In this document: one piece after another, positions 1-18,354 of the stretch
How positions within the stretch are numbered: the stretch's first letter is position 1
Layout of the letters: every line of letters starts with the position of its first letter
From: Streptomyces mobaraensis
GTDB lineage: Bacteria; Actinomycetota; Actinomycetes; Streptomycetales; Streptomycetaceae
Assembly (NCBI RefSeq): GCF_020099395.1
Contig: NZ_CP083590.1
Location: 7,130,001 to 7,194,000 of the forward strand
Direction: 5' to 3'
Length of the DNA stretch: 64,000 bases
The notes under the pieces: generated by a model
Database searches by the model: none
What the model saw: only the letters and a program-made list of their open reading frames with translations
Told to the model about the DNA's origin: nothing
Program-made: the position numbers and the translations under genes

Positions 1-458
1 ACCCGGCAGGGGGTCACGTCCAGCAAGTCGCAGGCGTTGAACCAGCCCGACGGCGACGACACCGTACGGTGCCGCGCCGGCCCCTCCAGTACCACCCGGT
101 GCTCGTCCAGGAACGGACTCACGGCGGGCAGGTTGTCGTCGTCCATGGACACGGCGCACGCACTGCCGTTCAGATACGACAGCAGATAGCCGATGTTGCG
201 CCGGTTGTCCGAGTCGTACGGCACGAGCCCCGGCACCCCGAGCTTCGCCAGCAGCCGGTCCTGCTCCGCCACGTCGGGGCTGACGATCGCGGCGCCGCGA
301 CCGCGGGCCCGGTCGCAGGCCGCGTGGAAGGCGGCGGGCGTCCGGCGGTCGGGGATGACGACGAGCCGGGCGCCGCCCTCCGCGAGGGTGTCGGCGTAGT
401 GCTCCAGGAACTCCCCGGAGCCGATGGTCGTGATGACGATGTCGATCGTTTCGGACAT
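1..458 (-). CDS. RGP/UAM-like (GT75) nucleotide-sugar mutase, partial at left edge
   Basis: The 3' end lies outside the window; about 152 N-terminal residues are visible. The protein starts MSETIDIVITTIGS and carries an acidic SMDDDN motif at residues 105-109, preceded by a hydrophobic GYLLSYL segment. This layout resembles plant reversibly glycosylated polypeptides (UDP-arabinopyranose mutases), where a DDD motif binds metal and nucleotide-sugar. From memory, MtdL of the A201A pathway is a bacterial relative that converts a GDP-6-deoxyhexose between pyranose and furanose forms. With a GDP-mannose dehydratase in the same operon, a GDP-sugar furanose mutase is the most economical role. It lies 20 bases after the MFS gene. 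A conventional glycosyltransferase cannot be excluded from the N-terminal half alone. Confidence 0.6.
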   Translation of the reverse strand, partial: MSETIDIVITTIGSGEFLEHYADTLAEGGARLVVIPDRRTPAAFHAACDRARGRGAAIVSPDVAEQDRLLAKLGVPGLVPYDSDNRRNIGYLLSYLNGSACAVSMDDDNLPAVSPFLDEHRVVLEGPARHRTVSSPSGWFNACDLLDVTPCR

Positions 459-478
459 GAGGTCACTCCGCAGTGTGG

Positions 479-1735
479 TCACTCCGTAGGGGGAATGTCC
501 CGCCAGAACCGCAGCCGGGAGGAGGCGGTGACGAGAGGGGCGCCGATCCAGAGGAGCATGACGACGGCCAGCCCGAGCCGCGGGCCGAACAGGCTGCCGA
601 GCGCACCGCCGACCAGCCCGCCGACGAAGAGCATGCCGCGGCTGACGAACCGGACGCAGGCCACCGTCCGCTGCAACAGGGCGGAAGGGGTGAGGAGTTG
701 GACGAGGGTGGCCTGGCCGACCGTGAACACGGCGTACCCGGCGTGGAACAGCAGCGCGCCGCACAGAAACAGGAACAACCCGGAGCCCGGCCGGGTCAGT
801 GGCAGCAGCAGCCCCGCCGGGGCGAACACCGCCGCGGGGATCCAGACCGCGCGGGCCGTGCCCAGCCGTCGCGCCACCCGGCCCGCGCCGAACGCCCCGA
901 TCAGCCCGCCGATGCCCACCGAGCCGATCAGCAGGCCCAGGGTGCCGGGGGCGACCCCCACGTCGTCGGCCAGGAAGAGGACGACCAGCGCCTCGTACGC
1001 GGCGAAGCAGCAGTTCCCCAGGGCGGAGCCCGCGATCGACGCGAGGATGACGGGCCGCCGCGCCACGAACCGGAACGCCTCGGCGAGTTCCGCCCCCAGG
1101 CCGGACGCGCGGGACGCCGCGCCCGGCGCCTCGATGTTCGCCCGCATCAGCAGGTTGCACGCCGCCGAGGCCGCGAAACCGCCCACGTTGAGCAGCGGGG
1201 CGCGCTCGGGCCCCAGCACCTGCACCGTGAACCCGGCCACCGCCGGGCCGAAGGCCAGCGACACCGCGCGCGCCATCTGCAGCCGGACGTTGCCGTGCAC
1301 GAGCCGGTCCTTGGGCAGCATCCGCGGCGGCATGGACAGGTACACGATCTCGTAGAACACCGTCGCGCAACTGACCAGCACATTGGAGAGGTACAGGTGC
1401 CACAGTGCCAGGTGCTCCGTCGCCGCGAGGACCGGCACCATGGTGACGATCACCGCGCGGCCGAGGTCGGCGAGCAGCAGCAGCGTCCGCGGGCGCAGCC
1501 GCGCGCCGTACACGCCGGCGGGCAGCGTCAGCACCAGCCACGGCAGATAGCCCGCCGCGGTGATCAGCCCGACCTCGCCGACCGTCGCCCCCAGCGTCCG
1601 GGCGGCGAGCAGCGGGAAGGCGACCACCGTCGCCATCCCGCAGAGCTGGCTGATACCGCTGCCGACCCACAACAGGCGGAAGTCCCGTTCGAGGGCGCGG
1701 GCGGGGGCGGTGGGCAACGTGGCGAGATCGGACAT
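479..1735 (-). CDS. MFS exporter (EntS/MFS_3-like)
   Basis: A 418-residue protein with about twelve hydrophobic segments, typical of the major facilitator superfamily, most like the enterobactin-exporter-type MFS_3 group. The start MSDLATLPTAPARAL was chosen because AGAAAGAGAG lies about 8 bases upstream; the open frame continues further upstream but only through arginine/proline-rich low-complexity codons. It is the last-but-one gene visible in the leftward biosynthetic operon, between a cyclitol-type dehydrogenase (723 bases away) and the mutase-like gene (20 bases). Context suggests proton-driven export of the cluster product, and therefore a contribution to self-resistance. The substrate cannot be read from sequence. 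Confidence 0.85.
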   Translation of the reverse strand: MSDLATLPTAPARALERDFRLLWVGSGISQLCGMATVVAFPLLAARTLGATVGEVGLITAAGYLPWLVLTLPAGVYGARLRPRTLLLLADLGRAVIVTMVPVLAATEHLALWHLYLSNVLVSCATVFYEIVYLSMPPRMLPKDRLVHGNVRLQMARAVSLAFGPAVAGFTVQVLGPERAPLLNVGGFAASAACNLLMRANIEAPGAASRASGLGAELAEAFRFVARRPVILASIAGSALGNCCFAAYEALVVLFLADDVGVAPGTLGLLIGSVGIGGLIGAFGAGRVARRLGTARAVWIPAAVFAPAGLLLPLTRPGSGLFLFLCGALLFHAGYAVFTVGQATLVQLLTPSALLQRTVACVRFVSRGMLFVGGLVGGALGSLFGPRLGLAVVMLLWIGAPLVTASSRLRFWRDIPPTE

Positions 1736-2458
1736 GGCAAACGCTCTCTTTCTGTCGGTGCGCCGCGGTTCCCCGGGGCGGGGTTCGTCCCGGTGCGCGC
1801 GGACGTGCAACTTCCGCGGACGCCGTGGCGGCGGACGCCCCGACGGCGTCCGGCCCACGGCACCGCCCGAGCGGCGGCGACCGGCCGCGCCGGGGCGGGT
1901 CCGGCGGCGGGTCCGGGGGCGGGTCCGTCGGCAGGTTCGGCGGTGACCTCCACGGCGGAGACGACGACGGCCCCCGCGGTGGGCCCGACGGCCGGCCGTC
2001 GCTTCCCCGGCCGGGCCCCATCCTGGCGGCGCGCACGGCACCCGCCATGACCCCCGGCCCCCTCGGCGCGTCCCGGGCGGCGGGCGTGCCGCGCCCGGCG
2101 GCTTGGGTTTCCGCGGTGGCTCGGGTGACTCCTGCGGCCCCGGGGGCTGCGGCGGTGTCAGCCACAGTGGTCTTGACGGCGGCCCCGGCGGCCCTGCCCG
2201 ACCGGACGGCGGTCCCGGCGATGCCGGCCGTCCCGAGGGTTCCAACGGTCGCGGTCGTGGTGGCGGATGCGGTCGTACTCATGGCCCCGCCGGCCCCGGC
2301 CCCGCCGGCCCCGGCCCCGCCGGCCCCGGCCCCGCCGGCCCCGGCCCCGCCGGCCCCGGCCCCGGGGCCAGCCCCGACCGCTGGGCGCACCCAGGCGGCC
2401 CCGGCCGTCCCGCACATCCCCCTCACCGCCCCGCGGCCCCTCACCGCCTCGCGTCCCC
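1736..2458. other. 723-base gene-free low-complexity gap inside the operon
   Basis: This is by far the largest gap in the leftward cluster. All frames are long and open because the sequence is extremely GC-rich, but every translation is Pro/Arg/Gly/Ala monotony with no ribosome-binding site or domain. I see no gene here. In the hygromycin A cluster, as I remember it, an inositol-1-phosphate synthase gene lies between the inositol dehydrogenase and the exporter genes, so a lost gene is possible. Confidence 0.55.
2284..2363. repeat. 15-base tandem repeat, five copies
   Basis: Unit gccccgccggccccg is repeated five times without change at 2284-2358, followed by a partial copy. It lies in the gene-free gap. 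The unit is a multiple of three and would encode Pro-Ala or Gly-Pro runs, but there is no supported gene. The array is prone to slippage and could form strong secondary structure in the operon transcript. Confidence 0.9.
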
Positions 2459-3451
2459 TCACGGCGCCACCGGAACCGATCCCCCCGCCACCGACCGCTC
2501 CGCGGCCAGCGCGCAGCGCAGGGCCGCGTGGGAGTCGCGCCAGCCGCCCGCCGCCGGGTCGGGCGGGCCGCCGGTCGCGGTGGTGAGGAAGGCGCGCAGC
2601 TGGGTGCGGTAGGCGGTGCCGAAGCGGTCCCAGTAGCCCTGGTGGCGGGGGGCCGGCGCGCCGCCCGCGCCGGGCTCGGACGCGCCCGTGGGACCCGCCT
2701 CCAGGTTGCCCCGCTCGCCCAGCAGTTCGGCCCGCACGTCGTAGCCCAGCGGCTGCCGGCGGCCGGCGGTGAGGACCGCGAGCGTGCCGTCGTCGAGCCG
2801 GAGCATGGCCGTGACCGTGTCGAAGTCGCCGAGGTCCGCCAGTTCGGGGCAGGCCAGCGCCGCGCCGTCGGCGGTCACCCGGACGACCGTCCGGCCGGTG
2901 AGCCAGCGGACCAGGTCGAAGTCGTGCAGCATCAGGTCGGTGAAGACCGAGCCGCTCTCGCGGAGGCGGGCGAGCGGGGGCGGGGCCATGTCGTGCGAGA
3001 CGAGCCGGAGCACGTGCGGCCGGCCCAGGTCGCCGGCGGCCACGCGGGCCCGCAGGCCCGCGAAGCCGGGGTCGAAGCGGCGCTGGAACCCCACCCACAG
3101 CGGCACGCCCCGCCGGTCGGCCGCCCGGCCCAGCGCCTCCGTCGTCGCCGGATCCACGGCCAGCGGCTTCTCGCACAGCGTCGGCACCCCCGCGCCGACC
3201 AGCTCCGCGACCAGTTCCGGATGGCTGGTGGTGGCCGCCGTCACCAATGCCGCGTCGCAGCCCCGGGACAGCAGGACCTCGGCCGAGTCCGCGACGGACC
3301 CGCGGGCCGCCTTCCGGGCCAGCGCCTCGGCGCGGTCCGGGACGACGTCCACGCACACCAGCCGGTGCGGCCCCAGCGCGGCCAGGTGCTCGGCGTACAG
3401 CGCGCCGATCCGCCCGCAGCCCAGCAGGCCGATCACCAGGCCCCCGCTCAT
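2459..3451 (-). CDS. Gfo/Idh/MocA dehydrogenase, inositol 2-dehydrogenase-like
   Basis: A 330-residue NAD(P)-dependent oxidoreductase. Residues 5-15 hold the Rossmann start IGLLGCGRIGAL, and CEKPLAVD near residue 90 is the EKP signature whose Lys takes part in catalysis. The dimerisation half follows, with FTDLMLHDFDLVRWL, the usual HDxD region. The family oxidises inositols and sugars. In this cluster it would oxidise a cyclitol to the ketone used by the class III aminotransferase, giving an aminocyclitol. It overlaps the glycosyltransferase by 4 bases (ATGA), so the two are translationally coupled. The substrate is inferred from context. Confidence 0.82.
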   Translation of the reverse strand: MSGGLVIGLLGCGRIGALYAEHLAALGPHRLVCVDVVPDRAEALARKAARGSVADSAEVLLSRGCDAALVTAATTSHPELVAELVGAGVPTLCEKPLAVDPATTEALGRAADRRGVPLWVGFQRRFDPGFAGLRARVAAGDLGRPHVLRLVSHDMAPPPLARLRESGSVFTDLMLHDFDLVRWLTGRTVVRVTADGAALACPELADLGDFDTVTAMLRLDDGTLAVLTAGRRQPLGYDVRAELLGERGNLEAGPTGASEPGAGGAPAPRHQGYWDRFGTAYRTQLRAFLTTATGGPPDPAAGGWRDSHAALRCALAAERSVAGGSVPVAP

Positions 3452-4737
3452 CGCCGTACCCCCGCGGCCGGCGCGACGGCGGACCGGACCAGGCCGACGA
3501 GGTCCGCCGACTCCCGGCGGGCGCGCAGCCGGGCGCCCCATGCGGCCGCCCGCTCGGTGTATCCGGGATCGGCGAGGACGTCCTCGATGCCCCGTCCGAT
3601 GTCGTCGGCCGGCACGTACGGGCCGTCGGCCGGGCCGGAGGTACGGTTCGTGAACGCGAGCCGCCCGTGGGGCAGCGTCGCGCTGGTCCGCAGCAGTACC
3701 CCCGCGCCGGTCGCCTCGGCCAACTGCCGCCCGTTCAGCTCCTGTTCGGACATGAACGGCATGACGACCGACGGCTTGCCGTGCAGCAGCGCGGCCAGCA
3801 CCGTCGCCGAACCGCCGTGGCTCACCACCACGTCCGCCCAGGCCAGCGGCGCGTCCAGGCCGGTGAAGCCCGCGACCACCGCGTTGTCCGGCACCACCAG
3901 GCCGCCCTGGAAGGCGAAGCCGCTCGACACGTACACGGTCCAGGGCCGGTCCGCGCAGGCGTCGAGGACGTTCTGGAGCGCCCGCCGGGCCACGTTGCCG
4001 CCGCTGCCGATGGTGACGTACACCCGCGGCCGGTCCGTGCGCGGCGGCTCCGGGGCGGCGCCGGCCGGGTTCCAGTACATCGGGCCGACGTAGTGCGGCG
4101 CGCCCCGGTGCGGCGGCCCGTCCAGGGGCTCCAGGCCGGGGTCGCTCGACACCAACGTGACGTCCCCCCACAGCAGATGCTCCGCCCGCGCCACCGGGCC
4201 CAGGCCGAGCTCGCGCGACACCTCGTCCCAGACGGGCAGACCGGCCGGATGCGGCAGCAGGTCGCGCGGCGCGACGGTCGACCACGGCATCCAGCCGTTC
4301 GCGCGCGGGGTGACGAAGTCCGCGTCGGCGAGCGAGACGACGGGCACGCCGGCCGCGCGGGCGGCGAGGGCGGCGGTGGGGTACATGTCGACGACGACCA
4401 CCGTCGGCCGGAACTCCCCGATCAGCCGGGCGTCCGCGGCCAGCCGCCGCCGGACGCGCTCGATCCGGTGGAACGTCGCCGCGACGGTGAACACCCGCTC
4501 CACGTCGGCGAACGGGAGGTACGGCGGCGTCGGGTGCCGGGCGGGCGGCCGGGGCGCGCCGGGCCCGGAGTCCAGCACGGGGAACCCGGCCTCCCGCACC
4601 ATCGCGGTGATGCCGCAGTCCGCGAACGCCACCTCGGCGCCCGCCGCGGCCAGTTCCGCCGCCAGGGCCAGGCACCGGCCGGTGTAGGCCGCGCCGCCGC
4701 CCCAGCCCCAGGGGAAGAACAGCACTCGTCCGGTCAC
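3448..4737 (-). CDS. MGT-family glycosyltransferase (GT1, GT-B fold)
   Basis: A 429-residue glycosyltransferase of the macrolide-glycosyltransferase type. The N-terminus MTGRVLFFPWGWGGGAAYTG is the acceptor-domain glycine loop. The C-terminal half contains YVTIGSGGN and the nucleotide-sugar motif ADVVVSHGGSATVLAALLHG with PSVVMPF, as in GT1/GT28 enzymes. In the cluster it probably attaches the deoxyhexose (perhaps the furanose) to the phenol of the aryl acid. It starts 34 bases after the ketoreductase and overlaps the next gene by 4 bases. Donor and acceptor are inferred only. Confidence 0.85.
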   Translation of the reverse strand: MTGRVLFFPWGWGGGAAYTGRCLALAAELAAAGAEVAFADCGITAMVREAGFPVLDSGPGAPRPPARHPTPPYLPFADVERVFTVAATFHRIERVRRRLAADARLIGEFRPTVVVVDMYPTAALAARAAGVPVVSLADADFVTPRANGWMPWSTVAPRDLLPHPAGLPVWDEVSRELGLGPVARAEHLLWGDVTLVSSDPGLEPLDGPPHRGAPHYVGPMYWNPAGAAPEPPRTDRPRVYVTIGSGGNVARRALQNVLDACADRPWTVYVSSGFAFQGGLVVPDNAVVAGFTGLDAPLAWADVVVSHGGSATVLAALLHGKPSVVMPFMSEQELNGRQLAEATGAGVLLRTSATLPHGRLAFTNRTSGPADGPYVPADDIGRGIEDVLADPGYTERAAAWGARLRARRESADLVGLVRSAVAPAAGVRR

Positions 4738-4771: not shown

Positions 4772-5512
4772 TCAGACCGTCATCCCGCCGTCCACCGCGA
4801 TCACCTGCCCGGTGACGTACGACGCGGCCGGGGAGCAGAGGAAGGCCACGACCGCGGCGACCTCCTCGGGCCGGGCCGGCCGGCCGAGCGGGGTGCGGCG
4901 TACGACGTCCTCACGCGCCCGCTCCGGCAGGGCGTCGTACGCGGGCGTCCCGGCGACCAGCCCGGGGGCCACGCAGTTGCAGGTGAGCCCGTACCGCCCG
5001 TACTCCCGGGCGACCGTCCACGCCAGCCCGTGCAGCCCCGACTTGCCCGCCGCGTACGCCGCCTGGCCCGGCCGCCCGCGCAGCCCGGCCACCGACGACA
5101 CCAGCACCACCCGCCCGCCGGGCCTCCGCAACATGGCCCGCACCCCGGCCCGCAGACAGCGGAACGCGCCGCCGAGGTTGACCGCCAGCTGCTCCTCCCA
5201 CTCCTCGTCCGGCACGTCGAGCAGCAGCCGGTCCCGGTGGATCCCGGAGTTGACGACGAGCACATCCAGCCGGCCGAACTCCGCCACGGCCGCGTCGACC
5301 ACCCGCGTCCCGCCGTCCGGGAGGGACAGATCGGCCGTCACCGCCACGGCGGACCCGCCCCCCGCCCGCAGCGCGTCGGCCGTGTCCGCCGCGGCCTTCG
5401 CGTCGCGGTGCGCGTGCACCGCGACCGCGTGGCCGGCGGCGGCCAGCGCCCGGGCGACGGCCCGGCCCAGGGGCCCGGAACCGCCGGTCACCAGGGCGGC
5501 CCGGCCGTTCAC
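4772..5512 (-). CDS. SDR ketoreductase (FabG-like)
   Basis: A 246-residue classical short-chain dehydrogenase. TGGSGPLG at residues 9-16 is the cofactor loop, NSG near 88-90 corresponds to NAG, and the catalytic set is Ser139/140, Tyr153 and Lys157 (SSVAGL then YAAGK). The GTG start at 5512 overlaps the stop of the preceding gene as GTGA, the arrangement seen repeatedly in this operon. It most likely reduces the beta-keto aryl-acyl-ACP formed after one round of extension. No dedicated dehydratase is visible in the window. Length and motifs are normal for FabG. Confidence 0.85.
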
Positions 5513-6544
5513 CGCGCCTCCGGGAGCGGGAAGCACGTGTCCGCGATGTGCGCGAACCGGGCGCGCAGCCGGTCCGCCGCCCCGGGGTCCGGGGTCCCTT
5601 CCCGCCCGCCCGCGGCGACCATCGCCTCCCGCAGCCGGTCCAGCGCGGCCAGCAGCGGGCGCCCCAGCGCCAGCACGCGCGGGTACACCGCCGGCGGATC
5701 CGGCTGCTCGTGCGCCGCGATCAGGGCGGTGCCGAGCCGCTTGGCCCGCAGCCGGGCGTCCAGCGCGGCGGTCCGCACCGCGGCCGCGGCGGGGGAGAGG
5801 CCGTCCGGCGGGCCCAGTGCCTGCGCGTAGAGGAACAACTGGGGCTGGAGGTCGCCCAGGACGAGCACGTGCAGCGCCCGGGCCGGCACCGGGTCGAGGC
5901 CGTGCGCGGCGAGCCCGTCGAGCTCGTCGAAGAGGACGCGCAGCGCCCGTGCCCCGGCGGACAGCAGCGCGGTGTCCCGGTCCAGCCGCCCGGCCAGGTA
6001 CTCCGCCGCGTCCCGCTCGTCCGGCGGGCCGGTGGGCGTCACCGTGCCCACCCAGGTGAACAGCGCCCGTAGCGCGGGCGTCAGCGTCCACCGCCGCCGG
6101 AAGCCGTCGGCCGGGTCGGCGTCGGTGTCCAGCACGGTGACGACGCCGTCGGCCGGGGACCAGCCGACCGCCAGCACGGCGTGGTCGTGGAAGTGGAAGC
6201 GGCCCTCGTAGACGTCGCCGGGCAGGTGGTAGCGGTCCGGCAGCACCATCACCGGCTCCCCGGCGGCCAGCCGCTCCAGCACGAACGGCACGTTGCGCGC
6301 ACCGTCGTCGAACGCCGTCCGGTACGTCACCCGGCAGCCGTCGAAGTCCTTGGCCAGGTCCCGGCCCACCGGGTCCAGCGGACCGTTGAGCGCCCGCGCG
6401 ACCGCCAGCGGGCCCAGGCCCCGGAACCGCAGCACCGCCTCGACGCAGCGGAGCACGCAGTTCAGCCCGTCCAGCGCGCGGTCCCCCCCAGCCCAGCGCC
6501 GCGCCAGGGTCGAACCGCGGCACGGCGGCGGCCGTGCCCGTCAC
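5509..6544 (-). CDS. BtrH-like acyltransferase, frameshifted near the N-terminus
   Basis: From residue [16 protein letters not shown] onward the frame is intact to the stop (about 315 residues from the first in-frame GTG). The N-terminal half fits the BtrH_N family: a Cys-containing start helix, a central loop with YHLPGDV, and [12 protein letters not shown], plus a C-terminal helical domain. BtrH transfers an acyl group from an ACP to an amine in butirosin biosynthesis. Here it could join the aryl acid from an ACP to the aminocyclitol. The only good start, GTG at 6544, overlaps the ACP stop (GTGA) but is one base out of frame; a seven-C tract at 6483-6489 separates the frames, and six C would give a continuous protein. 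This is either a sequencing error or an inactivating slip. Confidence 0.6.
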
Positions 6545-6831
6545 CGCGGCTCCCGCGCGGCGGCCCGGGCGCGGGCGACCAGGGTGTCGGCCAGGTGCCC
6601 CAGGTTGTCGAAGACCGTCCAGTCGGTCTCCTCCTCGCTGTAGGGCACGCCCCACGCGTCCTCGAAGCGGGAGAACACCACGATCAGATCGAGGGAGTCC
6701 ATCCCGATCTCGTCCAGGGTGGTGCTCTCGTCGAGCCGGTCGGGCAGGTGGGGGCGTTCCGCGAGGACGGTCGTGACGAGCTTCATCACGTCCTCGCGGT
6801 CGGGCAGCCGGGGGGTGGCGGCGTCGGTCAT
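6541..6831 (-). CDS. Acyl carrier protein 1
   Basis: A 96-residue acyl carrier protein. The phosphopantetheine site is Ser46 in the motif [10 protein letters not shown], followed by the usual acidic helix II. A ribosome-binding site GAAAGGGA precedes the ATG. It is the partner of the adjacent AMP ligase (47 bases upstream in the operon) and overlaps the BtrH-like gene by 4 bases, so the likely sequence is loading by the ligase and unloading by the acyltransferase. A second, divergent ACP lies earlier in the operon, which suggests separate starter/extender or loading/transfer roles. Confidence 0.92.
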
Positions 6832-6878: not shown

Positions 6879-8249
6879 TCAGCCGCCGTCGTCCGTCAGG
6901 AGCGGGCCGCGGCGGATCTTCCCGCTGGGCGTTCTGGGCAGCGCGTCGACCCGGCGGATGACCGAGGGCACCTTCACAGGCGTCAGCAGCTCGCCGGCCC
7001 GGCGGCGCAGGGCCGCCGCGTCGAAGTCGCGGGCGTCGGCCTCGACGAACGCCCACACCTGCGTCCCGCCCGCCGGGCCCGGCCGTCCCACGACGGCGCA
7101 GTCGCCCACGCCGGGCAGGCCGCGCAGGACGGCCTCCACCTCGGTGGGCGAGACCTTGTTGCCCGCGACGTTGATGAGCGCGTCGGCGCGGCCGGTCAGC
7201 CGGAGCCCGCCGTCGGCGTCGAGCACGCCGAGGTCGCCCGTGGCGACCCAGCCGTCCGCGTCGGCGAGCGGCGTCGGGCGCCCTTGCCGCATGCGGACGG
7301 GGGAGAGGCCGGGGAAGCGCGCGGTCACCGGCCCCGGCCCGTCGGTGCCGGCCCGCAGGCCGACGCCGGGCAGCGGGCGGCCGACGCCCCCGCCGTCACC
7401 GGCCGGGCCGAGGGTCAGCTGGCCCAGCTCGGAGTTGCCGTAGTGGTCGAGGACGGGGACCCCGGCGTCGTGCCAGGGCGCGGCCGCGGCGGCCGGCAGG
7501 GCCTCGCCCGCGCTGACGCACCGCTTCCAGCGGCCCGCGCGCGGCACGCCGCCCCGCCCCCACCAGTCGAGGACGAGCGGGACCGTCTGCAGCACGCTCG
7601 GCCGGTGCCGCTCGGCCAGGGCGGCGGCCCGGGCCGGGGTCAGCGGGCCGGACGGCACCACCTGGCAGGCCCCCGCCGCCAGGACGGCGAGGGTGCCCGC
7701 CTCGATCGCGTAACTGTGGCCGAGCGGACTGGTGGTGAGCACGACGTCGTCGGCGTCCAGCCCCGACTCGGCGGCGAACACGGCCGAGTTGCGGAACGTG
7801 CCGGGCCACTCCCGGGAGATCACCTTCGGCCGGCCGCCGGTCCCCGAGCTGGCGACGGCGAACGCGGGTGAGCCCCCGGCGTCCCCGGTGTCCGTCCTCA
7901 GCCGCTCCACCCGCCCGTCGGTGACGAGCAGTTCGGCCCCGAAGTCGTCCAGCGCCGCCGCCCGCTCGGCGCCACCGGCGCGCTCTTGCAGCACCAGTAC
8001 GGCGGCCCCCAGCGACAGCGCGGCGGCGAAGTCGGCCACGGACTCCAGCAGGCAGGTGAGGACGACACCGACGGGCACGCCGGCGCCGATGCCGGCCTCC
8101 CCCAACTCCCGCATCCTGCCGCCGACGTCCCGCTCCAGCTCGGCGTAGGTGACCGACCGCCGCCGGTCCGCCAGGGCCGGGCGGTCTCCCCGGCCGGCGC
8201 GGCGGTGCCCGGCGAGGACGTCCAGCGGGGTGTCCGGTGCGTCGTCCAC
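6879..8249 (-). CDS. AMP-dependent aryl/acyl ligase
   Basis: A 456-residue adenylate-forming enzyme of the ANL superfamily. ASSGTGGRPK at 133-142 is the phosphate-binding A3 motif, HYGNSELGQ is the A5 region, TGDLGVLDADG is A7, RADALINVAGNKV is A8, and PSGKIRR contains the catalytic A10 Lys444. With a chorismate-lyase-like gene and a 4-hydroxybenzoate hydroxylase in the cluster, the likely substrate is 4-hydroxybenzoate or 3,4-dihydroxybenzoate, loaded on an ACP or CoA. The start is GTG, 2 bases after the ketosynthase-like stop. It is slightly short for the family, at the linker. Substrate choice is inferred from context. Confidence 0.85.
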   Translation of the reverse strand: MDDAPDTPLDVLAGHRRAGRGDRPALADRRRSVTYAELERDVGGRMRELGEAGIGAGVPVGVVLTCLLESVADFAAALSLGAAVLVLQERAGGAERAAALDDFGAELLVTDGRVERLRTDTGDAGGSPAFAVASSGTGGRPKVISREWPGTFRNSAVFAAESGLDADDVVLTTSPLGHSYAIEAGTLAVLAAGACQVVPSGPLTPARAAALAERHRPSVLQTVPLVLDWWGRGGVPRAGRWKRCVSAGEALPAAAAAPWHDAGVPVLDHYGNSELGQLTLGPAGDGGGVGRPLPGVGLRAGTDGPGPVTARFPGLSPVRMRQGRPTPLADADGWVATGDLGVLDADGGLRLTGRADALINVAGNKVSPTEVEAVLRGLPGVGDCAVVGRPGPAGGTQVWAFVEADARDFDAAALRRRAGELLTPVKVPSVIRRVDALPRTPSGKIRRGPLLTDDGG

Positions 8250-9466: not shown

Positions 9467-10596
9467 CACGGCCTCCGGAAGACGAGCGCGGTGTTCATCC
9501 CGCCCAGGCCGCATGACACGCTCAGCGCGGTCCGCAGATCCGGCACGGGCCGGGGGCGGTCCTCCAGGACCAGGTCGAGGTCGTCGAACGCCGGATCGAC
9601 GGGCGCCGCGCCCCATGTCGGGGTGACCGCGCGGTGGACCAGCGACAGCACGCACGTCACGGCCTCGACGGCACCCGCGCCGCCCTGGAGGTGCCAGAGC
9701 ACGCCCTTGACGCTGTTGACCGGAACCGAGGGCAGCCGGTCGCCGAACACCGCGCGCAGCGCGGCCACTTCCGCCGTGTCGCCACGCCGGGTGCCCGGCC
9801 CGTGGGCGTTGACGAAGTCCACGTCGCCGGGATCGATATGAGCGTCCGTCAGGGCCAGGCGGACGGCCAGTTCGATGCCGGCGGGGTCCGGGGCGGCGAG
9901 GTGGCCGGTGGCGTTGGTCAGGCCGCAGCCGGCCAGCACCGCCAGGACGGTCCCGGGCGCCGCCGCGTCCAGGGGCTGGAGCCGGAGCACGGCCGCGCCC
10001 TCGGAGAGGCCGATGCCCCGCCGCCGGGCGCTGAACGGCCGGCAGCCCTCCGGGCCCAGCGTCCGCAGCGAGTTGAGGCCCAGCAGGGCCAGGTCCGTCA
10101 CGGCGTCCGCGCCGCCCGCCACCGCCGCCGGGGCGTCCCCGGCGGCCACCATGTCCCGGGCCACGGCGACGGCCGCGGCGCCGGACGCCGAGGCGTTGGC
10201 GACGGTCACGGCCTCGCCGCCCAGCCCGGTCCGCTCCGCGCAGGCCGCCGCCAGGTCGCCGGGGAAGCGGCCCGGCAGGGGCGGGACCGCGCCCGGGTCC
10301 GTGGTGCCGAGGACGAGCGCGACGCGCCCGAGCCCGCCGGCGTCCAGCCCGTCGACGGCCTCCCGCACGGCGGCCCCGGCGAGGTCGAGGGCCCGCCACT
10401 CCCCGTCCCCGCCGACGGCCGACGGCACCCGGCCCGCCGCCCGCAGCGTCGCGCCGGCCACGTCGAACTCCGTGACGGGCGGCCGGTGCGCTCGCCCGCT
10501 GCCCAGCGCCTCCCACAGCGCCGGCACCCCGACGCCGCCGGGCCCGCACGAGCCCAGCCCGGTGACGGCGACCGGCCGCCGGCCCGCGCCGGTCAC
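9466..10596 (-). CDS. Beta-ketoacyl-ACP synthase with Cys-to-Ser nucleophile
   Basis: A 376-residue FabF-type ketosynthase. The alignable core NASASGAAAVAVARDMVAAG places Ser136 exactly where FabF has its catalytic Cys (TACTSG). His265 (FVNAHGPGTRRGD) and His302 (SVKGVLWHLQGGAGAVEA) are conserved. Codon tcg confirms serine. Ser-type ketosynthases exist (DpsC-like KASIII) and may acylate by another route or decarboxylate. Here the enzyme would extend an aryl-ACP once with (methyl)malonyl-ACP. The GTG start overlaps the ACP2 stop (GTGA). Length is slightly below the usual 410, with loss in surface loops rather than in the catalytic centre. Confidence 0.83.
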   Translation of the reverse strand: MTGAGRRPVAVTGLGSCGPGGVGVPALWEALGSGRAHRPPVTEFDVAGATLRAAGRVPSAVGGDGEWRALDLAGAAVREAVDGLDAGGLGRVALVLGTTDPGAVPPLPGRFPGDLAAACAERTGLGGEAVTVANASASGAAAVAVARDMVAAGDAPAAVAGGADAVTDLALLGLNSLRTLGPEGCRPFSARRRGIGLSEGAAVLRLQPLDAAAPGTVLAVLAGCGLTNATGHLAAPDPAGIELAVRLALTDAHIDPGDVDFVNAHGPGTRRGDTAEVAALRAVFGDRLPSVPVNSVKGVLWHLQGGAGAVEAVTCVLSLVHRAVTPTWGAAPVDPAFDDLDLVLEDRPRPVPDLRTALSVSCGLGGMNTALVFRRP

Positions 10597-10868
10597 CGCC
10601 GACCGCCCCGGCTGAGCGCCCGGGCCAGCGAGCCGAGGCTCGCCGACTCCAGGACGGTGTCGTCCGGCAGGGACACGCCCAACTCCTGTTCCAGTTCCCC
10701 GATCACCGAGATGAGGAGCACCGAGTCGACGCCCGCGGCCGCCAGCGGCTCGGTGTCGTCCAGCCACGGCAGGCCCGGCTCCTCGCCCAGCCGGCGCGCG
10801 AGCCCGGCCCGTACCCGCGCGAGCATCGCCTGCTGAACTTCGCCTGCCACCGCGTCGTCCGCCGTCAC
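10593..10868 (-). CDS. Acyl carrier protein 2
   Basis: A 91-residue acyl carrier protein. Ser49 in AAAGVDSVLLIS is the phosphopantetheine site (GVDS instead of GMDS in the other ACP). The GTG start overlaps the aminotransferase stop by 4 bases and its own stop overlaps the ketosynthase start, so it is translated in fixed ratio with the ketosynthase. The low identity to ACP1 suggests it carries the extender or the beta-keto intermediate rather than the starter. The fold prediction is secure; the division of labour is inferred. Confidence 0.9.
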   Translation of the reverse strand: MTADDAVAGEVQQAMLARVRAGLARRLGEEPGLPWLDDTEPLAAAGVDSVLLISVIGELEQELGVSLPDDTVLESASLGSLARALSRGGRR

Positions 10869-12181
10869 GCCGCCTCCGCCGCGACCCGGAACGCCTCGTC
10901 GCAGGCGGCCAGGGTGTGGTCGAGGTCCGCGTCCGTGGTGGCGGCGCAGACGAACCAGTGGTGGGTGGGGTGCAGCAGCACGCCCCGGCGGGTCGTCTCC
11001 GTGAAGAACGCGTCCTGGAGCACCCGGGACCGGCCGGGATCCGGGTGCTCGAAGGTCAGGAACGGCATCTGCGGCACCCCGCGCACCCGGGCCGGCACCC
11101 CGTGCCGCCGCGCCAGCCCGGCCAGCCCCTCCTGCAGCCGTGTCCCGAGCGTCCGCACCCGCTCCAGGAGCGTCCCGTCCGCCAGCCGGTCCATCGTCGC
11201 CAACGCGGCGGCCATCGCCACGGTGTTGGAGTAGAACGTGGACGAGATGTGCGTCCGGCCTACCATGGCCATCACGTCGGCCCGGCCCGTCAGCGCCGAC
11301 ACCGCCCAGCCGTTCGCCATCGCCTTGCTGAACGTCGCCAGGTCGGCCCGGACGCCGTACAGCTCCTGCGCCCCGCCGAGGGCCACCCGGAACCCGGACC
11401 GCATCTCGTCGAAGACCGCCAGCGCGCCGTGCTCGTGCGCGAGGTCGACGGCACCCTGGAGGAAACCCGGTGCGGGGGCGTCGAGTTCGAAGGGCATCAG
11501 CAGCAGGCAGGCCACCTCGCCGGGGTGGCGCCGGAAGGCCTCGCGCAGGCTGTCCAGGTCGTTGTACCGGAAGGTGTCGACCTGCGTCCGGACGGTGTCC
11601 GGGATGCCGCCCGGCCGCTGTGCCGCCCAGTCGTGCCACCCGTTGTAGCCCCAGCGCACGACCCGGTCCCGCCCGGTGAACGCGCGGGACAGGCGCACGG
11701 CCGCGCTGGTGGCGTCGGAGCCGGTCTTGAGCAGGAACACCCGTTCCGCGCCCGGGATCACCTGGACCAGCCGCTCGGCCAGCTCGATCTGTGTCCGCTT
11801 GCGGAGGGTGATCGAGAAACCTTCCTCGATCTCCCGGAGGGCGGCCTCGGTCACCGCCGGGTCGGCGTGGCCGAGGATGATCGTGCCGTAGGCGAGGATG
11901 TAGTCCAGGTACTCGTTGCCGTCGGCGTCCCAGACGCGGGCGCCCCGGGCCCGTTCGCCGTAGACGGGGTAGGCACCGTCGACCAGCCGGTCGCGTTCGA
12001 TGACGTAGTCCTTCTCCGACAGCGTCGCGTCCACGAGCCGGCCGCGGGCGAGCAGCTTCGCCGAGTTGTCGAGCCGGAGGGCTCCGGGCGGGTCCGCCGG
12101 GCCCGTTGAGGCCGTTGAACCTGTTGAGCTCGTTGAGTCCCTTGAGCCCGTTGAGTCCCTTGAGTTCGTCGGGTCGGTCAC
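10865..12181 (-). CDS. Class III aminotransferase (GSA-aminotransferase-like)
   Basis: A 438-residue PLP enzyme. LKTGSDATSAAVRLSRA near the phosphate-binding region, FDEMRSGFR (Asp binding PLP N1) and ATFSKAMANGW (Schiff-base Lys) identify the glutamate-1-semialdehyde-aminotransferase branch. The GTG at 12181 was chosen for its GGAGGGG ribosome-binding site 8 bases upstream. The first 30 residues are a Ser/Thr/Asp/Arg repeat tract unlike the family and encoded by a 9-base near-repeat. In this cluster a role in aminating a keto-cyclitol, after the Gfo/Idh dehydrogenase, fits best; amination of a keto-sugar is the alternative. Confidence 0.85.
   Translation of the reverse strand: MTDPTNSRDSTGSRDSTSSTGSTASTGPADPPGALRLDNSAKLLARGRLVDATLSEKDYVIERDRLVDGAYPVYGERARGARVWDADGNEYLDYILAYGTIILGHADPAVTEAALREIEEGFSITLRKRTQIELAERLVQVIPGAERVFLLKTGSDATSAAVRLSRAFTGRDRVVRWGYNGWHDWAAQRPGGIPDTVRTQVDTFRYNDLDSLREAFRRHPGEVACLLLMPFELDAPAPGFLQGAVDLAHEHGALAVFDEMRSGFRVALGGAQELYGVRADLATFSKAMANGWAVSALTGRADVMAMVGRTHISSTFYSNTVAMAAALATMDRLADGTLLERVRTLGTRLQEGLAGLARRHGVPARVRGVPQMPFLTFEHPDPGRSRVLQDAFFTETTRRGVLLHPTHHWFVCAATTDADLDHTLAACDEAFRVAAEAA
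12078..12170 (-). repeat. 9-base near-repeats encoding a Ser/Thr-rich N-terminal tail
   Basis: Variants of the 9-base pattern cccgttgag/tcccttgag recur about eight times over 12100-12170 (plus strand). They lie in frame in the aminotransferase N-terminus and encode repeated SRDST/STGST units. The aligned family begins only after them, so this tail appears to be a recent in-frame expansion. It is disordered by composition. Confidence 0.7.
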
Positions 12182-12339: not shown

Positions 12340-14079
12340 TCACCGGCGGCCCGGCCCGGGCCGGGCGCCGCGGACGAGCCGGCCGGGCAGCGCCCCCGTC
12401 GGCTCCCCGTCGCGGAACGTGATCTCGCCCGCGACGACCGTCGCCGCGTACCCGTCCGCCTTCTGGATCAGGCGCCCGCCGCCCGCCGGAAGGTCGTGGA
12501 CGAACTCCGGCGAGCGCAGCGCGAGCCGCTCGAAGTCGATGACGTTGAGGTCCGCCCGGTAGCCGGGCCGCAGCAGCCCGCGGTCCCGCAGCCCGTACAG
12601 CCGCGCGGGCTCCCATGTCTGCTTCCGGACGACGAACTCCAGTGGCAGCCGGTCCCCCCGGCTGCGGTCGCGCGCCCAGTGCGTGAGCATCGACGTGGGG
12701 GTGCTGGCGTCGCAGATGAGCCGGCAGTGCGCGCCGGCGTCGCTCAGGCCGAGGACGGCCTGGGGGTGGAGCAGCATCTCGCGGATCGGTTCGAGCGTGT
12801 ACTCGGCGTAGCCCAGCAGCGGCCGGAAGATCATGCCGCTGGTCTCCTCGGAGGTGAGGAAGTCGTAGATCAGGGCCTCGGGGTCGCGCCCGAGGCGGCG
12901 GGCGAGGGCGTCGAACGACCGGTCGGCGGCGGGCTCGTAGTCCGGCCCGGTCGCGTCCATCGGGAAGTGGCGCGCGTAGCCCTGGGGGAACAGCGCCGAG
13001 CGGGGGTCGGCGTTCTCCGGCGTCTCGCCGAGGACGCGTGCGCGCAGCGCCGGGTCGCGCATCGCCGCCCGGCGCTCGGGCGCGGGCAGGTGCGCGATCC
13101 GCTTGTAGGACGGGCGTTTATGGAACGGGTGGGTGGAGTCCAGGCTGATGACGACGCCGAACGGGCGCCCGGCCACCTGCGGGTGCAGGTCCGCGCCGTC
13201 CCGTACCGCGTCCTCCGCGATCTGGAGCAACTCCCGCCATCCGGCGGGGTTGTTGTCGTTCTGGAAGAGGCCGAACGTCACCGGCCGCCCGACCGCCGCC
13301 GACAGCCGTCGCATCCAGGTGATCTCGCCGAGCGGGTCGTCGACCTTCTCGCCGCCCGCGCCCAGCGGTACGAGCTGGAAGACGCCGGTGCCGGCCGCGC
13401 CGAGCACCCCGCCCAGGGCGAACAGCTCCTCCTCGGCGGCGAAGGTGCCGGGCACCGGGTCGCCGGTGATGGCGAGGTGGGTGAGGGTGCGGGAGGTGGA
13501 GAGGCCGAGGGCGCCGGCCTCGATCCCCTCGCGGGCGAGCGCGCACATCCGCCGCAGGTCGTCCTCGGTCGGCGGCTCGTTCGCGGCGCCCCGGTCGCCC
13601 ATCACGTACGCCCGCAGCGCGCCGTGCGGGACCTGCGCGGCGACGTCCAGGACGCGCGGGACGCGCTCCACCGCGTCGAGGTACTCGGGGAACGTCTCCC
13701 ACTGCCAGGTGATGCCCTCGGACAGCGAGGCGCCCGGGATGTCCTCGACGCCCTCCATCAGCCCGACGAGCCAGTCGTGCCGGTCCGGGCGGGCGGGCGC
13801 GAAGCCGACCCCGCAGTTGCCCATCACCACCGAGGTGACGCCGTGCCAGCAACTGGGCGTGAGCAGCGGGTCCCAGCTGACCTGCCCGTCGAAGTGGGTG
13901 TGGATGTCGACGAAGCCGGGGGTGACGATCCGGCCGCCGGCGTCGAGCTCCGTCCGGCCCCGGTCCGGCACCCGGCCGACCCGGGTGATCACACCCCCGT
14001 CGACGGCGACGTCGGCGCGGCGGGCGGGGATGCCGGATCCGTCGTACAGCGTGCCGTCGCGGACGATCAGGTCGTGCAT
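12340..14079 (-). CDS. Metal-dependent amidohydrolase (N-acyl-D-amino-acid deacylase-like)
   Basis: A 579-residue member of the amidohydrolase superfamily. [15 protein letters not shown] opens the small beta-domain, [13 protein letters not shown] carries the metal-binding HxH, a long TIM barrel follows, and [11 protein letters not shown] supplies the late metal/catalytic Asp. It resembles D-aminoacylases and the so-called amidohydrolase 3 group. In the hygromycin A pathway, from memory, a metallo-dependent hydrolase next to methyltransferase and aminotransferase genes is assigned to formation of the cyclitol methylene bridge; a deacylation step is the conventional alternative. The start has GAGGAGG about 10 bases upstream and overlaps the FkbM gene by 13 bases. 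A 158-base gap follows before the aminotransferase. Confidence 0.8.
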
Positions 14080-15011
14080 GGGGGGCCGGCCTCCTCGCGC
14101 GGTGCGAGCCGGTGGCCCGCGGGGGCGAACAGCAGGTTCTCGTACGCGTAGTGGTCCCGTGGCCGGTGCGGCACGGGGGTGCCGGCGCGCAGCTCCCACG
14201 GCGCGTAGCCGGCGGCCGTCAGGGTGTCGACGAGCGTGCGGCTGGGCGGCGCGCCCGCCACCTCCAGGTCGCCCACCTCCAGCGAGACGACGGGCCGCGG
14301 CCCGGTCAGCAGGCCGCGCATCCCGGCCAGGACGTGCGCCTCCGCGCTCTCCGCGTCGATCTTCACCAGGTCCGGGGCAAGCCCCTCGGCGCGGACGTAG
14401 TCGTCGAGGGCGACCGTCTCGGCGGTGAACGGGTCGGACGGGATCCGGGCCCGGACGGCCTCGGGGAGGCGGGCCTCGAACGCCGAGTTGTAGGCGCTGT
14501 AGCCGAGGCCGTGGTCGTAGAGGACCAGTTCGTCGTGGCGCGACCAGACCGCCGCCGGCACCACCCGGGCCTGCGGGAAGCGGCCGGCGTTCCGCCGCAG
14601 GACGGTGAGCGTGGACGGCGTCGGCTCGAAGGCCCGGACCGTCCCGCCGGGGCCGACCAGGGCGGCGGCGAGCACGGTGTAGTAGCCGATGTGCGCGCCG
14701 ACGTCGAGCACCGTCGCGCCGGGGCGCAGATGGGACAGGAGGAAGGCGGTGAGGTCGTAGTCGACGAAGCCGCGGCGGTGGAGGGCGACGGAGACCTCCT
14801 CGGGCAGCGCGATCGTCATCTCCTGGCCCCAGAAGGTGCGGGCGGCCGAGGGCCGCCCCTCGCCGCGGTGCCGCCGCCGGCGCAGCGCGCGGGTGCTGGG
14901 GTACGTCGTCCGGACCGGGTGGCGCAGGCGCTGTGCGAGCCCGCGGAGCCCGGTCGTGCGCGCGCGCCGGTCGAGGGCGGCCCGCCAGGCGGTCCGGTCG
15001 GTGGTGGTCAT
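14067..15011 (-). CDS. FkbM-family methyltransferase
   Basis: A 314-residue SAM-dependent methyltransferase. [18 protein letters not shown] (about 93-110) is motif [11 protein letters not shown] is the acidic motif II that holds SAM ribose, and LDDYV...[19 protein letters not shown] is the FkbM signature block. The family O-methylates sugars, cyclitols and hydroxyl groups of natural products. Within this operon a cyclitol or sugar hydroxyl is the likely target. It overlaps the GDP-mannose dehydratase by 4 bases and the amidohydrolase by 13 bases. An arginine-rich 60-residue N-terminal extension precedes the fold. Confidence 0.85.
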
Positions 15012-16096
15012 GGGCCTGGCCGCTCCAAGTCCTGGGCGTACGCGGGGGATTCGGGCCGTTCGTGGTGGTCCGGGGGTTCGGTCACCGGTATCGGCGTCCC
15101 GGGCTCGCGGCGGTCCGCGGCCAGCCCGGCCAGCTCGGCGTCCACCATGATCTGGGCGAGCCGGCGCACCGGCGTCCGCGCGGTCCAGCCGAACGCCCGG
15201 CGCGCCTTGCCCGCGTCACCGACCAGGGCGTCGACCTCCGTCGGGCGCAGGTACGCCTCGTCGTGGCGCACATGGCGGCGCCAGTCGAGGCCGACGTGGG
15301 AGAAGCAGTGCCCGGCGAACTCCCGCACGGTCGAGCCGACCCCGGTGGCCAGCACGTAGTCGTCCGGGCGGTCGAGTTGGAGCATCCGCCACATGCCCTC
15401 GACGTACTCGGGGGCGTACCCCCAGTCGCGGACGGCGTCGAGGTTGCCGAGGTAGAGGTGCTTCTCCAGGCCGGCCTTGATGCGGGCAGCGGCCCGGGCG
15501 ATCTTACGGGTCACGAAGGTCTCGCCGCGGCGGGGCGACTCGTGGTTGAAGAGGATGCCGTTGACGGCGAACAGCCCGTACGCCTCACGGTAGTTGCGGG
15601 TCATCCAGTAGCCGTAGAGCTTGGCGGCGGCGTACGGGCTGCGCGGCCGGAAGGCGGTCCGCTCGTCCTGTGGCGGCGGCGCGGCGCCGAAGATCTCGGA
15701 CGACGACGCCTGGTAGTAGCGGATGTCCCGGTCCCGGGAGGTCATGAGGACGGCCTCCAGCAGCCGGGTGGTGCCCATGCCGGTGATGTCGCCGGTGTTC
15801 TCCGGTTCGTCGAAGCTCACCCGGACGTGCGACTGGGCGGCCAGGTGGTACACCTCGTCGGGCCGGATCCGGCCGAGCAGCGTCACCAGGCGGCTGGCGT
15901 CGCGTACGTCGCCGTAGTGCAGGATCAGCCGCCGCCCGGCGTCGTGCGGGTCGCGGTAGATGTGGTCCAGGCGGCGGGTGTTGAAGGTCGAGCTGCGGCG
16001 GACGATGCCGTGGACCTCATAGCCCTTGTCCAGCAGCAGGTCGGCGAGGTACGAACCGTCCTGGCCGGTGATGCCGGTGATCAGCGCCCGCTTCAC
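15008..16096 (-). CDS. gmd: GDP-mannose 4,6-dehydratase
   Basis: A 362-residue extended [22 protein letters not shown] at 4-22 is the hallmark cofactor loop of Gmd; [35 protein letters not shown] and [10 protein letters not shown] (catalytic Tyr and Lys) follow, with [16 protein letters not shown] in the substrate half. It converts GDP-D-mannose to GDP-4-keto-6-deoxy-D-mannose, the precursor of GDP-fucose-type sugars. It therefore supplies the deoxyhexose for the glycosyltransferase and, by inference, for the mutase-like protein at the left edge. It is extended at the C-terminus by about 25 low-complexity residues and lies 58 bases after the chorismate-lyase-like gene. Confidence 0.95.
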
Positions 16097-16154: not shown

Positions 16155-16691
16155 TCATGTCGCCGCTCCGTCCTGCTCCGGGGGTACGGGCTCCAGGGGC
16201 ACGTACCGGGGGTTGAACCGCTCGTGGACGTACACCCGTCCGGCGCCGCCGCACTCGATGACGTACTCCTTGCTGACGCACGCGGGTGCCGTCCCGCCCA
16301 GCGGCCAGACGCCGCGCGACACGGCGATCGGCTCCCGGGTCAGCGACAGGCCCATGGCCTTGAGGTAGGGGCCCAGTAACTCGTCGTCCGGCGGCACCAG
16401 TTGGCCGCACCGCCGGGCCGCGATCACGACGCGGTTGACGCTGATGACGTCCAGGGCCGGGGTGAGGATCCGCGACCGCCGGTCGACCACCAGGGCGTCG
16501 GGCGCGGCCCCCAGGACGTCGCACCCGATGTGCCGGACGCGGGCGGCGCGCACCTGCCGCTGGTGGTCGACGCGTACGCGCAGCCGTTCGCCGACGAGGG
16601 CGTCGAGCAGCACCGTCGTGGAGCCGTCCGCGCACACGAGCATCCTCGTCTGCGGTGGTGCCGAGGAGAATTCCCCGAGCCGTTCGGTCAT
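16155..16691 (-). CDS. Chorismate lyase-like protein (DUF98/UbiC fold)
   Basis: A 178-residue protein. [20 protein letters not shown] at 17-36 and the spaced Arg-rich strands match the DUF98/UbiC-like fold, in which chorismate is split to 4-hydroxybenzoate and pyruvate. [21 protein letters not shown] and the C-terminal [21 protein letters not shown] fit the same family. It is the first gene of the leftward operon and stands divergent from a 4-hydroxybenzoate hydroxylase, so the functional assignment (supply of 4-hydroxybenzoate) is strongly supported by its neighbour. The ATG has a GGTGGTGAG ribosome-binding site. A regulatory UTRA-type relative is the alternative, but no DNA-binding domain is present. 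Confidence 0.78.
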
Positions 16692-17066: not shown

Positions 17067-17076
17067 TGATTAATCA
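17067..17076. promoter_or_regulatory. AT-rich palindrome TGATTAATCA upstream of pobA
   Basis: A perfect 10-base palindrome about 75 bases before the pobA start, 37 bases after the SARP-like array. It could include the -10 of the pobA promoter or a repressor half-site. It stands out as the only AT-rich stretch on that side of the divergent region. Confidence 0.35.
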
Positions 17077-17151
17077 AGGTGGTAGGGGAAAGCGGTTCCG
17101 CGTACCACCGCTCGCGGAAAGCCACCCGGCCGGCACCGGAAAGGACGCCCC

Positions 17152-18354
17152 ATGCCCCCGGCCCTCACCCGGACCACCGTCGGCATCGTCGGCGCCGGCC
17201 CGGCCGGCCTCATGGCGTCCCACCTGCTGGCCCGGGCGGGCATCGACTCGGTGGTGGTCGACCACCGCACCCGGGCCGAGATCGGCGGCACCCAGCGGGC
17301 CGGCATCCTGGAGGCGGACAGCGCCCGCCTGCTCACCGACAGCGGCGTCTCCGACCGGGTGCGCCGCGAGGGCCGGCCGCACGCCGGGATCACCCTGCGC
17401 TTCGGCGGCGAGAGCCACCGCGTCGACTTCCGGGACCTCGTCGGCGAGAACGTATGGCTCTACCCGCAGACCGACGTGTTCGCCGACCTCGCCGCCGCCC
17501 GCGAACGCGACGGGGGAGACGTCCGCTACGGCGTGACCGGCACCCGCGTCACCGACCTCCCCACGGACCGCCCCGGCATCCTGTTCACCGACGCCGAGGG
17601 TGTGCCCCGCGAGGTGCGCTGCGCCGTCCTCGTCGGCGCGGACGGCTCGCGGGGAGTGTGCCGGCCCGCCGTCCCGGAGGCGGCGCGCACCCACTTCGTC
17701 CGCACGTACCCCTTCGCCTGGTTCGGCGTCCTCGTCCAGGCACCGCCCAGCGCCGGCGAACTCGTCTACACCCACTCCGCGCGCGGGTTCGCGCTCGTCA
17801 GCCGGCGCACGGAGTCCGTCCAGCGCCTCTACTTCCAGTGCGACCCGGACGAGGACCCCGCCGGCTGGCCGGACGACAGGATCTGGGCGGAACTCCAGGC
17901 GCGGGTGCGTGGCGCCGACGGGTTCGCCCTCGCCGAGGGGCCGGTGCTCGACCGCTCGGTGCTGCGTTTTCGCAGCTTCGTCTGCGAACCGCTGCGGTAC
18001 GGCAACCTGCTGCTCGCCGGCGACGCCGCGCACACCGTCCCGCCTACCGGCGCCAAGGGCCTCAACCTCGCCCTCTCCGACGCCCGCCTCCTCGCCGAGG
18101 CGGTGGAACGCGCCGTCGCCGCCCGCGACTTCCGGCACCTCGACGCCTACGGCCCCCGCGCCCTGCGCCGCACCTGGCGGGCCCAGCACTTCTCCTACTG
18201 GATGACGAACCTGCTGCACCGCCTCCCCGGCGCCACCGCCTTCGACGAACGCCGCCAACTCGGCGAACTCGCCGCCCTGGTAAGCTCCACGGCCGCGTCC
18301 ACACACCTCGCGGAGGGGTACACGGGGCGAGTGGTGCCCGCTCGGCGGCCATGA
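17152..18354 (+). CDS. pobA: 4-hydroxybenzoate 3-monooxygenase
   Basis: A 400-residue group A flavoprotein hydroxylase. GIVGAGPAGLMASHLLARAG at 10-29 binds FAD, RAGILE and the SARGFALVSRRT stretch are characteristic of p-hydroxybenzoate hydroxylase, and GDAAHTVPPTGAKGLNLA is the second FAD motif. It hydroxylates 4-hydroxybenzoate to 3,4-dihydroxybenzoate with NAD(P)H and O2. A ribosome-binding site GGAAAGGA precedes the ATG. It is divergent from the chorismate-lyase-like gene across a SARP-like array, which suggests it belongs to the cluster and sets the catechol pattern of the aryl unit, rather than serving catabolism. No protocatechuate-degradation genes are nearby. Confidence 0.93.
   Translation: MPPALTRTTVGIVGAGPAGLMASHLLARAGIDSVVVDHRTRAEIGGTQRAGILEADSARLLTDSGVSDRVRREGRPHAGITLRFGGESHRVDFRDLVGENVWLYPQTDVFADLAAARERDGGDVRYGVTGTRVTDLPTDRPGILFTDAEGVPREVRCAVLVGADGSRGVCRPAVPEAARTHFVRTYPFAWFGVLVQAPPSAGELVYTHSARGFALVSRRTESVQRLYFQCDPDEDPAGWPDDRIWAELQARVRGADGFALAEGPVLDRSVLRFRSFVCEPLRYGNLLLAGDAAHTVPPTGAKGLNLALSDARLLAEAVERAVAARDFRHLDAYGPRALRRTWRAQHFSYWMTNLLHRLPGATAFDERRQLGELAALVSSTAASTHLAEGYTGRVVPARRP

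Follow-up and report, generated by a model that had tools for sequence, protein, structure and literature searches.

Gene content of the cluster

The window analysed here comprises 64,000 nucleotides of Streptomyces mobaraensis DNA (G000:C1:7130001-7194000), whose positions 1-18354 hold 16 genes of the type found in hygromycin A (hyg) clusters, together with part of a 17th, in nearly contiguous arrangement. Gene calling and Pfam profiles, with the left flank from the same genome (L005 and L006) included, delimit a cluster of 22 genes and about 24 kb, spanning window positions -5621 to 18354. On the left the cluster extends past the window to about -5621 (G000:C1:7124379), and on the right it ends with the 4-hydroxybenzoate (pHB) hydroxylase gene at 17152-18354. 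The minus strand is used throughout, except by the hydroxylase, a small kinase (-1259 to -708) and, at the left end, a MaoC dehydratase and a short-chain dehydrogenase/reductase (SDR). This is very probably a hygromycin A biosynthetic cluster; the reactions catalysed in this strain, like the product itself, are deduced from the gene families, their order and their conserved residues.

A first-pass annotation of the window had described a nearly continuous operon of hygromycin A type that was incomplete at the left. Profile scans match the gene types that it listed on the minus strand, with the pHB hydroxylase on the plus strand, and "chorismate lyase" is the sole label left without profile support. 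Of its two ketosynthase-like proteins, one has a Pfam ketosynthase match and the other is a chain-length factor (CLF)-like protein; a BtrH_N gene (called at 5509-6456, PF14399) was absent from its list. The left end is indeed missing from the window, as the RGP mutase is cut by the window edge and the flank, which continues with the kinase, an acyltransferase, a GDP-fucose-synthase-like epimerase, the MaoC dehydratase and the SDR, completes the 22 genes. In particular, the annotation had looked to this flank for a phosphotransferase, for which the kinase is a candidate, and for SARP and inositol-phosphate synthase genes, neither of which occurs there.

The aryl polyketide set is all there, with AMP ligase, two acyl carrier proteins (ACPs), ketosynthase (KS)/CLF pair, acyltransferase, ketoreductase, dehydratase and pHB hydroxylase. 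The hydroxylase scores under the cut-off of the TIGR02360 equivalog and has a reciprocal best match in 7 of the 10 regions compared, two regions being cut there and one, G115, having none. The acyltransferase motif AASH and the MaoC motif DxNPxHxD are each found in 10/10 aligned rows. Likewise complete are the GDP-fucofuranose route (4,6-dehydratase, fucose synthase and Hyg20-type mutase) and the aminocyclitol set (inositol dehydrogenase, aminotransferase, methyltransferase and cyclase, that is Hyg17, 8, 6 and 7, with roles as in PMC10949010). Hyg numbers 6, 7, 8, 17, 18 and 25 are those of PMC10949010, where the activity of Hyg17 is also demonstrated, and Hyg20 is that of PMC9937993.

Conserved gene order and the likely product

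A profile scan of genome contigs with the BtrH-like protein alignment retrieved nine loci, in S. huiliensis (a 4-kb fragment), S. melanogenes, S. hygroscopicus NBRC 13472, Nocardia bovistercoris and five other Streptomyces strains. The BtrH-like gene is present in 9 of 392 Streptomyces genomes, the source genome included, five of them close (at least 77%) and four distant (at most 43%). All 22 genes have reciprocal best matches in six of the ten regions (G051, I05A-00742, S. melanogenes, G300, CBMA152 and Nocardia, where the hydroxylase sits at the opposite end). TSRI0281 has 21/22, the ACP that is uncalled there being detected by tblastn; S. hygroscopicus NBRC 13472 has 20/22 at 70-89% identity, on a contig that starts inside the chorismate-lyase gene; NBRC 110028 has 17/22 within the 20 kb compared, locus L015 adding genes up to chorismate lyase; and the distant relative G115 has 10/22. 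Gene order agrees with that of seven other long loci and, over the extent of its contig, with that of S. hygroscopicus NBRC 13472. Since the whole order is conserved in other genomes, chance is excluded, and this gene-by-gene collinearity, together with the residue match of the mutase to MtdL, upholds the hygromycin A type assigned at first pass. Divergence of the size seen here is compatible with the same product, because the hygromycin A producer S. leeuwenhoekii has a probable cluster almost fully syntenic with that of NRRL 2388 at 64-90% protein identity (PMC4487206), and the compound obtained from Streptomyces sp. 2AW, which has hyg2 to hyg27 at 78% nucleotide identity, fits hygromycin A or its epimer (PMC4853412).

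According to PMC9937993, which also names active-site residues, both MtdL and Hyg20 catalyse the reversible conversion of GDP-fucopyranose to GDP-fucofuranose. The RGP gene of the cluster is identical at 16 of the 17 named MtdL residues, the exception being Asn42, and the mutases of three relatives keep the same 16; the mapping offset was set by the fit of the DDD motif, which the 7yua alignment numbers alike. The A201A cluster (Saccharothrix AtaPKS3; Marinactinospora MtdL) has in common with this one the GT75 mutase, at 487.8 bits to MtdL structures, and a Ser-type ketosynthase, which speaks for the A201A alternative raised at first pass. However, the ketosynthase is only 53% identical to AtaPKS3, against 78% for S. 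leeuwenhoekii and 80% for S. hygroscopicus, the whole gene order is that of hyg loci, and the cluster contains aminocyclitol genes, with an inositol dehydrogenase, a proposed methylenedioxy cyclase and a GDP-fucose-synthase-like epimerase. In the A201A cluster an aminonucleoside takes the place of the aminocyclitol. An A201A-type aminonucleoside cluster is therefore a very remote prospect, and hygromycin A, or a compound very close to it, is the most likely product. A new related product, which had also been suggested, is not required, because the conserved order holds no extra gene (genes beyond the edges were partly scanned).

Statements on hygromycin A structure and chemistry that go beyond PMC10949010 and PMC9937993 are general background. 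In the proposed route, chorismate would be converted to 4-hydroxybenzoate, which, after 3-hydroxylation and activation by the AMP ligase, would be attached to an ACP. There the KS/CLF pair would perform a single extension with methylmalonyl, after which reduction and dehydration by the ketoreductase and the MaoC protein would give 2-methylcinnamoyl-ACP. In parallel, GDP-mannose would be turned into GDP-fucose and, by the RGP mutase, into GDP-fucofuranose, to be attached by the glycosyltransferase, with the SDR possibly oxidizing C5''. Oxidation, transamination, O-methylation and cyclisation of myo-inositol would generate the methylenedioxy aminocyclitol, and the BtrH_N-family protein would couple the acyl-ACP to its amine. 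The major facilitator superfamily (MFS) protein may serve for export and the kinase-like protein for producer protection, the role of Hyg21, which we take to be the self-resistance phosphotransferase; profile searches assigned no resistance model to the kinase-like gene.

Lost accessory genes and the broken frame

Several observations weigh against the hygromycin A reading. The hyg clusters of S. hygroscopicus and S. leeuwenhoekii have the same gene order as here (compared in S. hygroscopicus NBRC 13472), but in the window cluster hyg18 is decayed, the haloacid dehalogenase (HAD) phosphatase, the class II 3-deoxy-D-arabino-heptulosonate 7-phosphate (DAHP) synthase and the helix-turn-helix (HTH) regulator are gone, and the BtrH-like gene is broken in frame. 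The hyg reference for all comparisons was NBRC 13472 with the other loci, the NRRL 2388 hyg sequences lying outside. The putative chorismate lyase has no Pfam or NCBIfam match, a profile scan of eight orthologues likewise gave none, its matches among PDB sequences are weak ones to 2nwi (E 1.5 and 1.4), and a source gives the name chorismate lyase for 3/19 of its homologues. Furthermore, AziU3, the nearest fold to the proposed amide synthase, presumably serves azinomycin ring assembly and not amide formation.

Accessory-gene families were assigned from one representative each. Among the nine other hyg regions, an intact inositol-phosphate synthase (Hyg18; PF01658) is present in six, the HAD phosphatase (PF00702), which would be Hyg25, in seven, the class II DAHP synthase (PF01474) in six and the HTH regulator in four, two regions stopping short of its place; G051 and I05A-00742, like the window cluster, are without all four. 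Cluster copies of Hyg18 and the phosphatase are not strictly defining for hygromycin A clusters. Window 1736-2458, the gap that separates the inositol dehydrogenase from the exporter, keeps a trace of the synthase, and overlapping synthase residues are found in the matching gaps of G051 (E 2.6e-6) and I05A-00742 (G397; E 8.6e-10), while reversed-protein controls gave nothing better than E of about 0.1 among the matches listed. When whole genomes were searched with this synthase at E 0.001, the relic was listed in G397 but not in the source genome or G051, so that the window relic comes solely from the gap comparison. The gap also contains a perfect 15-base tandem repeat (2283-2364) of G+C-rich low complexity.

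A housekeeping inositol-phosphate synthase, 77% identical, is encoded at G000:C1:3740074-3741150, and DAHP synthases are encoded elsewhere in the source genome; for the HAD phosphatase, absence is known for the cluster only, no search having been made elsewhere. The lost genes seem to concern precursor supply and regulation, and the product should therefore be unchanged. A congener, for instance one without the methylenedioxy bridge or with an altered sugar, would agree with the range of identity of single genes to other hyg loci (55-98%), with the loss of the four accessory genes in the clade of the window cluster and with the existence of a distant group that has 12 of 29 hyg genes (PMC10949010). 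Nevertheless it is improbable, as the losses look like supply and regulation rather than tailoring, and none of the methyltransferase, cyclase, mutase and SDR genes has been lost, their identity being 71-96% in those hyg regions in which they were observed.

The BtrH-like protein matched no solved structure by sequence search. Fold searches with a model of its homologue P0001 returned AziU3/CtaG/CcbD-like folds, with a papain-like domain and a helical C-terminal part, and C28, H120 and D138 of P0001, invariant in 18 homologues, would constitute a catalytic triad. AziU3/U2, CtaG and CcbD belong to the azinomycin, closthioamide and celesticetin pathways, respectively, and share the fold with P0001 at 8-18% identity, a shared fold showing no function. 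Because of this common fold, the protein called "dehydratase" in a relative is suggested to be an amide synthase, whose substrate, unlike those of AziU3/U2, CtaG and CcbD, would be acyl-ACP plus aminocyclitol. A literature search linking CcbD, CtaG or BtrH with hygromycin A returned unrelated papers only among the matches listed.

Relative to its homologues, the BtrH-like gene changes frame within a run of seven G (6483-6489), ahead of the conserved Cys, and the first ATG, GTG or TTG of its open frame comes only at the codon after the conserved Cys. Compared with G051, over matches above 60% identity, it is the only one of the 22 genes that matches in two frames. The break is either an assembly error or a real lesion. 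A real lesion would cut off the N-terminal part of the amide synthase, with its start codon and conserved Cys, and leave the cluster silent or broken, which is rather unlikely although a stronger contender than a congener: seven-G runs are typical sites of assembly error, and no other gene has a comparable break.

A serine-type ketosynthase

The least ordinary part of the cluster is its ketosynthase, which has Ser in place of the catalytic Cys. Indeed, phmmer aligns Ser136 to the catalytic Cys of Pseudomonas aeruginosa FabF (represented there by wild type and mutants), so that of the canonical KS-I/II Cys-His-His triad both His are kept and Cys is replaced. Among the best 120 of 270 homologues, Ser occupies this position in the 55 nearest and Cys in the remaining 63; two without a residue at this column were dropped from census and tree. 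All 120 rows retain the two catalytic His and the Lys. In a FastTree phylogeny of 119 sequences the Ser group, to which AtaPKS3 from the A201A producer and the protein of S. leeuwenhoekii belong, is separated by one split (support 1.0, one change). The structure model (predicted local distance difference test score 94.1) has FabF as its nearest fold, the ishigamide KS/CLF also ranking among the top matches; the fold, two His and the Lys are common to these enzymes, whereas their nucleophilic Cys is Ser here. The CLF-like partner has no conserved Cys in the corresponding motif, judged by eye. The window copy also carries a long Ala/Gly/Pro-rich insert that is absent, or mostly so, in ten aligned relatives.

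We infer from the known product that the ketosynthase condenses despite its Ser. A precedent for Ser is the KAS-III enzyme DpsC. A literature search gave no paper naming a Ser ketosynthase among the matches listed, which says little, as subscription papers lie mostly outside it.

The distant BtrH-like genes of G036 (L045), G064 (L047), G150 (L046) and G115 (L040, L041) have nearby kinases and aminotransferases 57-65% identical to that of the window. KS, CLF and AMP ligase also lie near the BtrH-like gene in three of these four loci (for G150, the first 20 of 44 kb were covered), and the ketosynthase of G036, G064 and G115 carries Ser. Distant relatives of this type are known to exist, because the 12-of-29 set has been described as a second cluster group (PMC10949010). 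There is about an even chance that an old module is common to hygromycin A, A201A and several orphan clusters. In it, a Ser ketosynthase with two ACPs and a CLF-like partner that has no conserved Cys would condense once, by way of a Ser oxoester or directly from ACP to ACP, and hand the acyl-ACP to a papain-fold amide synthase misnamed dehydratase, and the whole would be accompanied by a class III aminotransferase as well as a small kinase.

Table 1. Genes and relics of the cluster, from right edge to left (window positions unless L006 is given)
Feature	Position	Strand	Evidence
4-Hydroxybenzoate 3-monooxygenase, cluster right edge	17152..18354	+	FAD_binding_3; NF006091 504.8 bits (cut-off 351); PDB pHB hydroxylase matches
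Putative chorismate lyase (4-hydroxybenzoate supply), weak label	16155..16691	-	Conserved in hyg loci
GDP-mannose 4,6-dehydratase	15008..16096	-	PF16363 438 bits; 78-97% identity in 8/10 regions
FkbM methyltransferase, Hyg6-like	14067..15011	-	PF05050, TIGR01444; Hyg6 role from PMC10949010
Amidohydrolase-fold protein, proposed methylenedioxy cyclase, Hyg7-like	12340..14079	-	PF07969; D-aminoacylase relatives in PDB; 83-96% in 8/10 regions
Class III aminotransferase, Hyg8-like	10865..12034	-	PF00202; 81-97% in 9 regions, 64% in G115
Acyl carrier protein 1	10593..10868	-	PF00550
Ketosynthase, Ser136 at catalytic Cys position	9466..10596	-	FabF alignment (P. aeruginosa), family census, structure model
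Chain-length-factor-like partner	8252..9466	-	No Pfam match; reciprocal best match in 10/10 regions
AMP-dependent aryl acid ligase	6879..8249	-	PF00501, PF13193
Acyl carrier protein 2	6541..6831	-	PF00550
BtrH_N-family gene, proposed amide synthase	5509..6543 (called open frame 5509-6456)	-	PF14399
Ketoreductase (SDR)	4772..5512	-	PF13561
Glycosyltransferase, EryCIII-like C-terminal domain, proposed fucofuranosyl transferase	3448..4737	-	PF06722
Gfo/Idh inositol dehydrogenase, Hyg17-like	2459..3451	-	PF01408; TIGR04380 inositol 2-dehydrogenase 248.9 bits, under cut-off 355
hyg18 relic (inositol-phosphate synthase)	1953..2072	-	tblastn E 6.5e-5 to residues 298-337 of S. hygroscopicus copy
MFS exporter	479..1735	-	PF05977, PF07690
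RGP/GT75 GDP-fucose pyranose-furanose mutase, Hyg20/MtdL-like	1..458 (window-cut); full gene L006:18343-19458	-	PF03214; PDB 7yua/7xpr 487.8 bits
Small kinase	L006:17741-18292 (window -1259 to -708)	+	
Acyltransferase	L006:16114-17418	-	Extender motif AASH
GDP-fucose-synthase-like epimerase	L006:15122-16117	-	
MaoC dehydratase	L006:14252-15100	+	Motif DxNPxHxD
SDR	L006:13379-14194	+	Mycofactocin-coupled SDR family by TIGR03971

Neighbouring DNA

Beside the cluster, window 19333-19935 (plus strand) encodes a 200-residue protein with PF00009 (EF-Tu-type GTP-binding domain) as its sole Pfam match and reciprocal matches in two of the ten regions, G051 and I05A-00742. About 30 kb to the left of the window, L005:2903-7885 (minus strand) encodes a type I polyketide synthase module (KS-AT-KR-ACP, that is ketosynthase, acyltransferase, ketoreductase and ACP, plus a docking domain), adjoined by a 944-aa open frame. 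A 744-residue frame at window 41307-43541 (plus strand) has a weak RHS repeat match.

Implications

Hygromycin A currently attracts interest because it acts selectively on the Lyme spirochete (PMC10949010), and its production is predicted here for this lineage, for which no announcement was found among the literature matches listed (titles and starts of abstracts). With the Ser-type ketosynthase and the proposed amide synthase, two unexplained steps of the family become directly testable in vitro, and the module they may form provides a handle for locating relatives.

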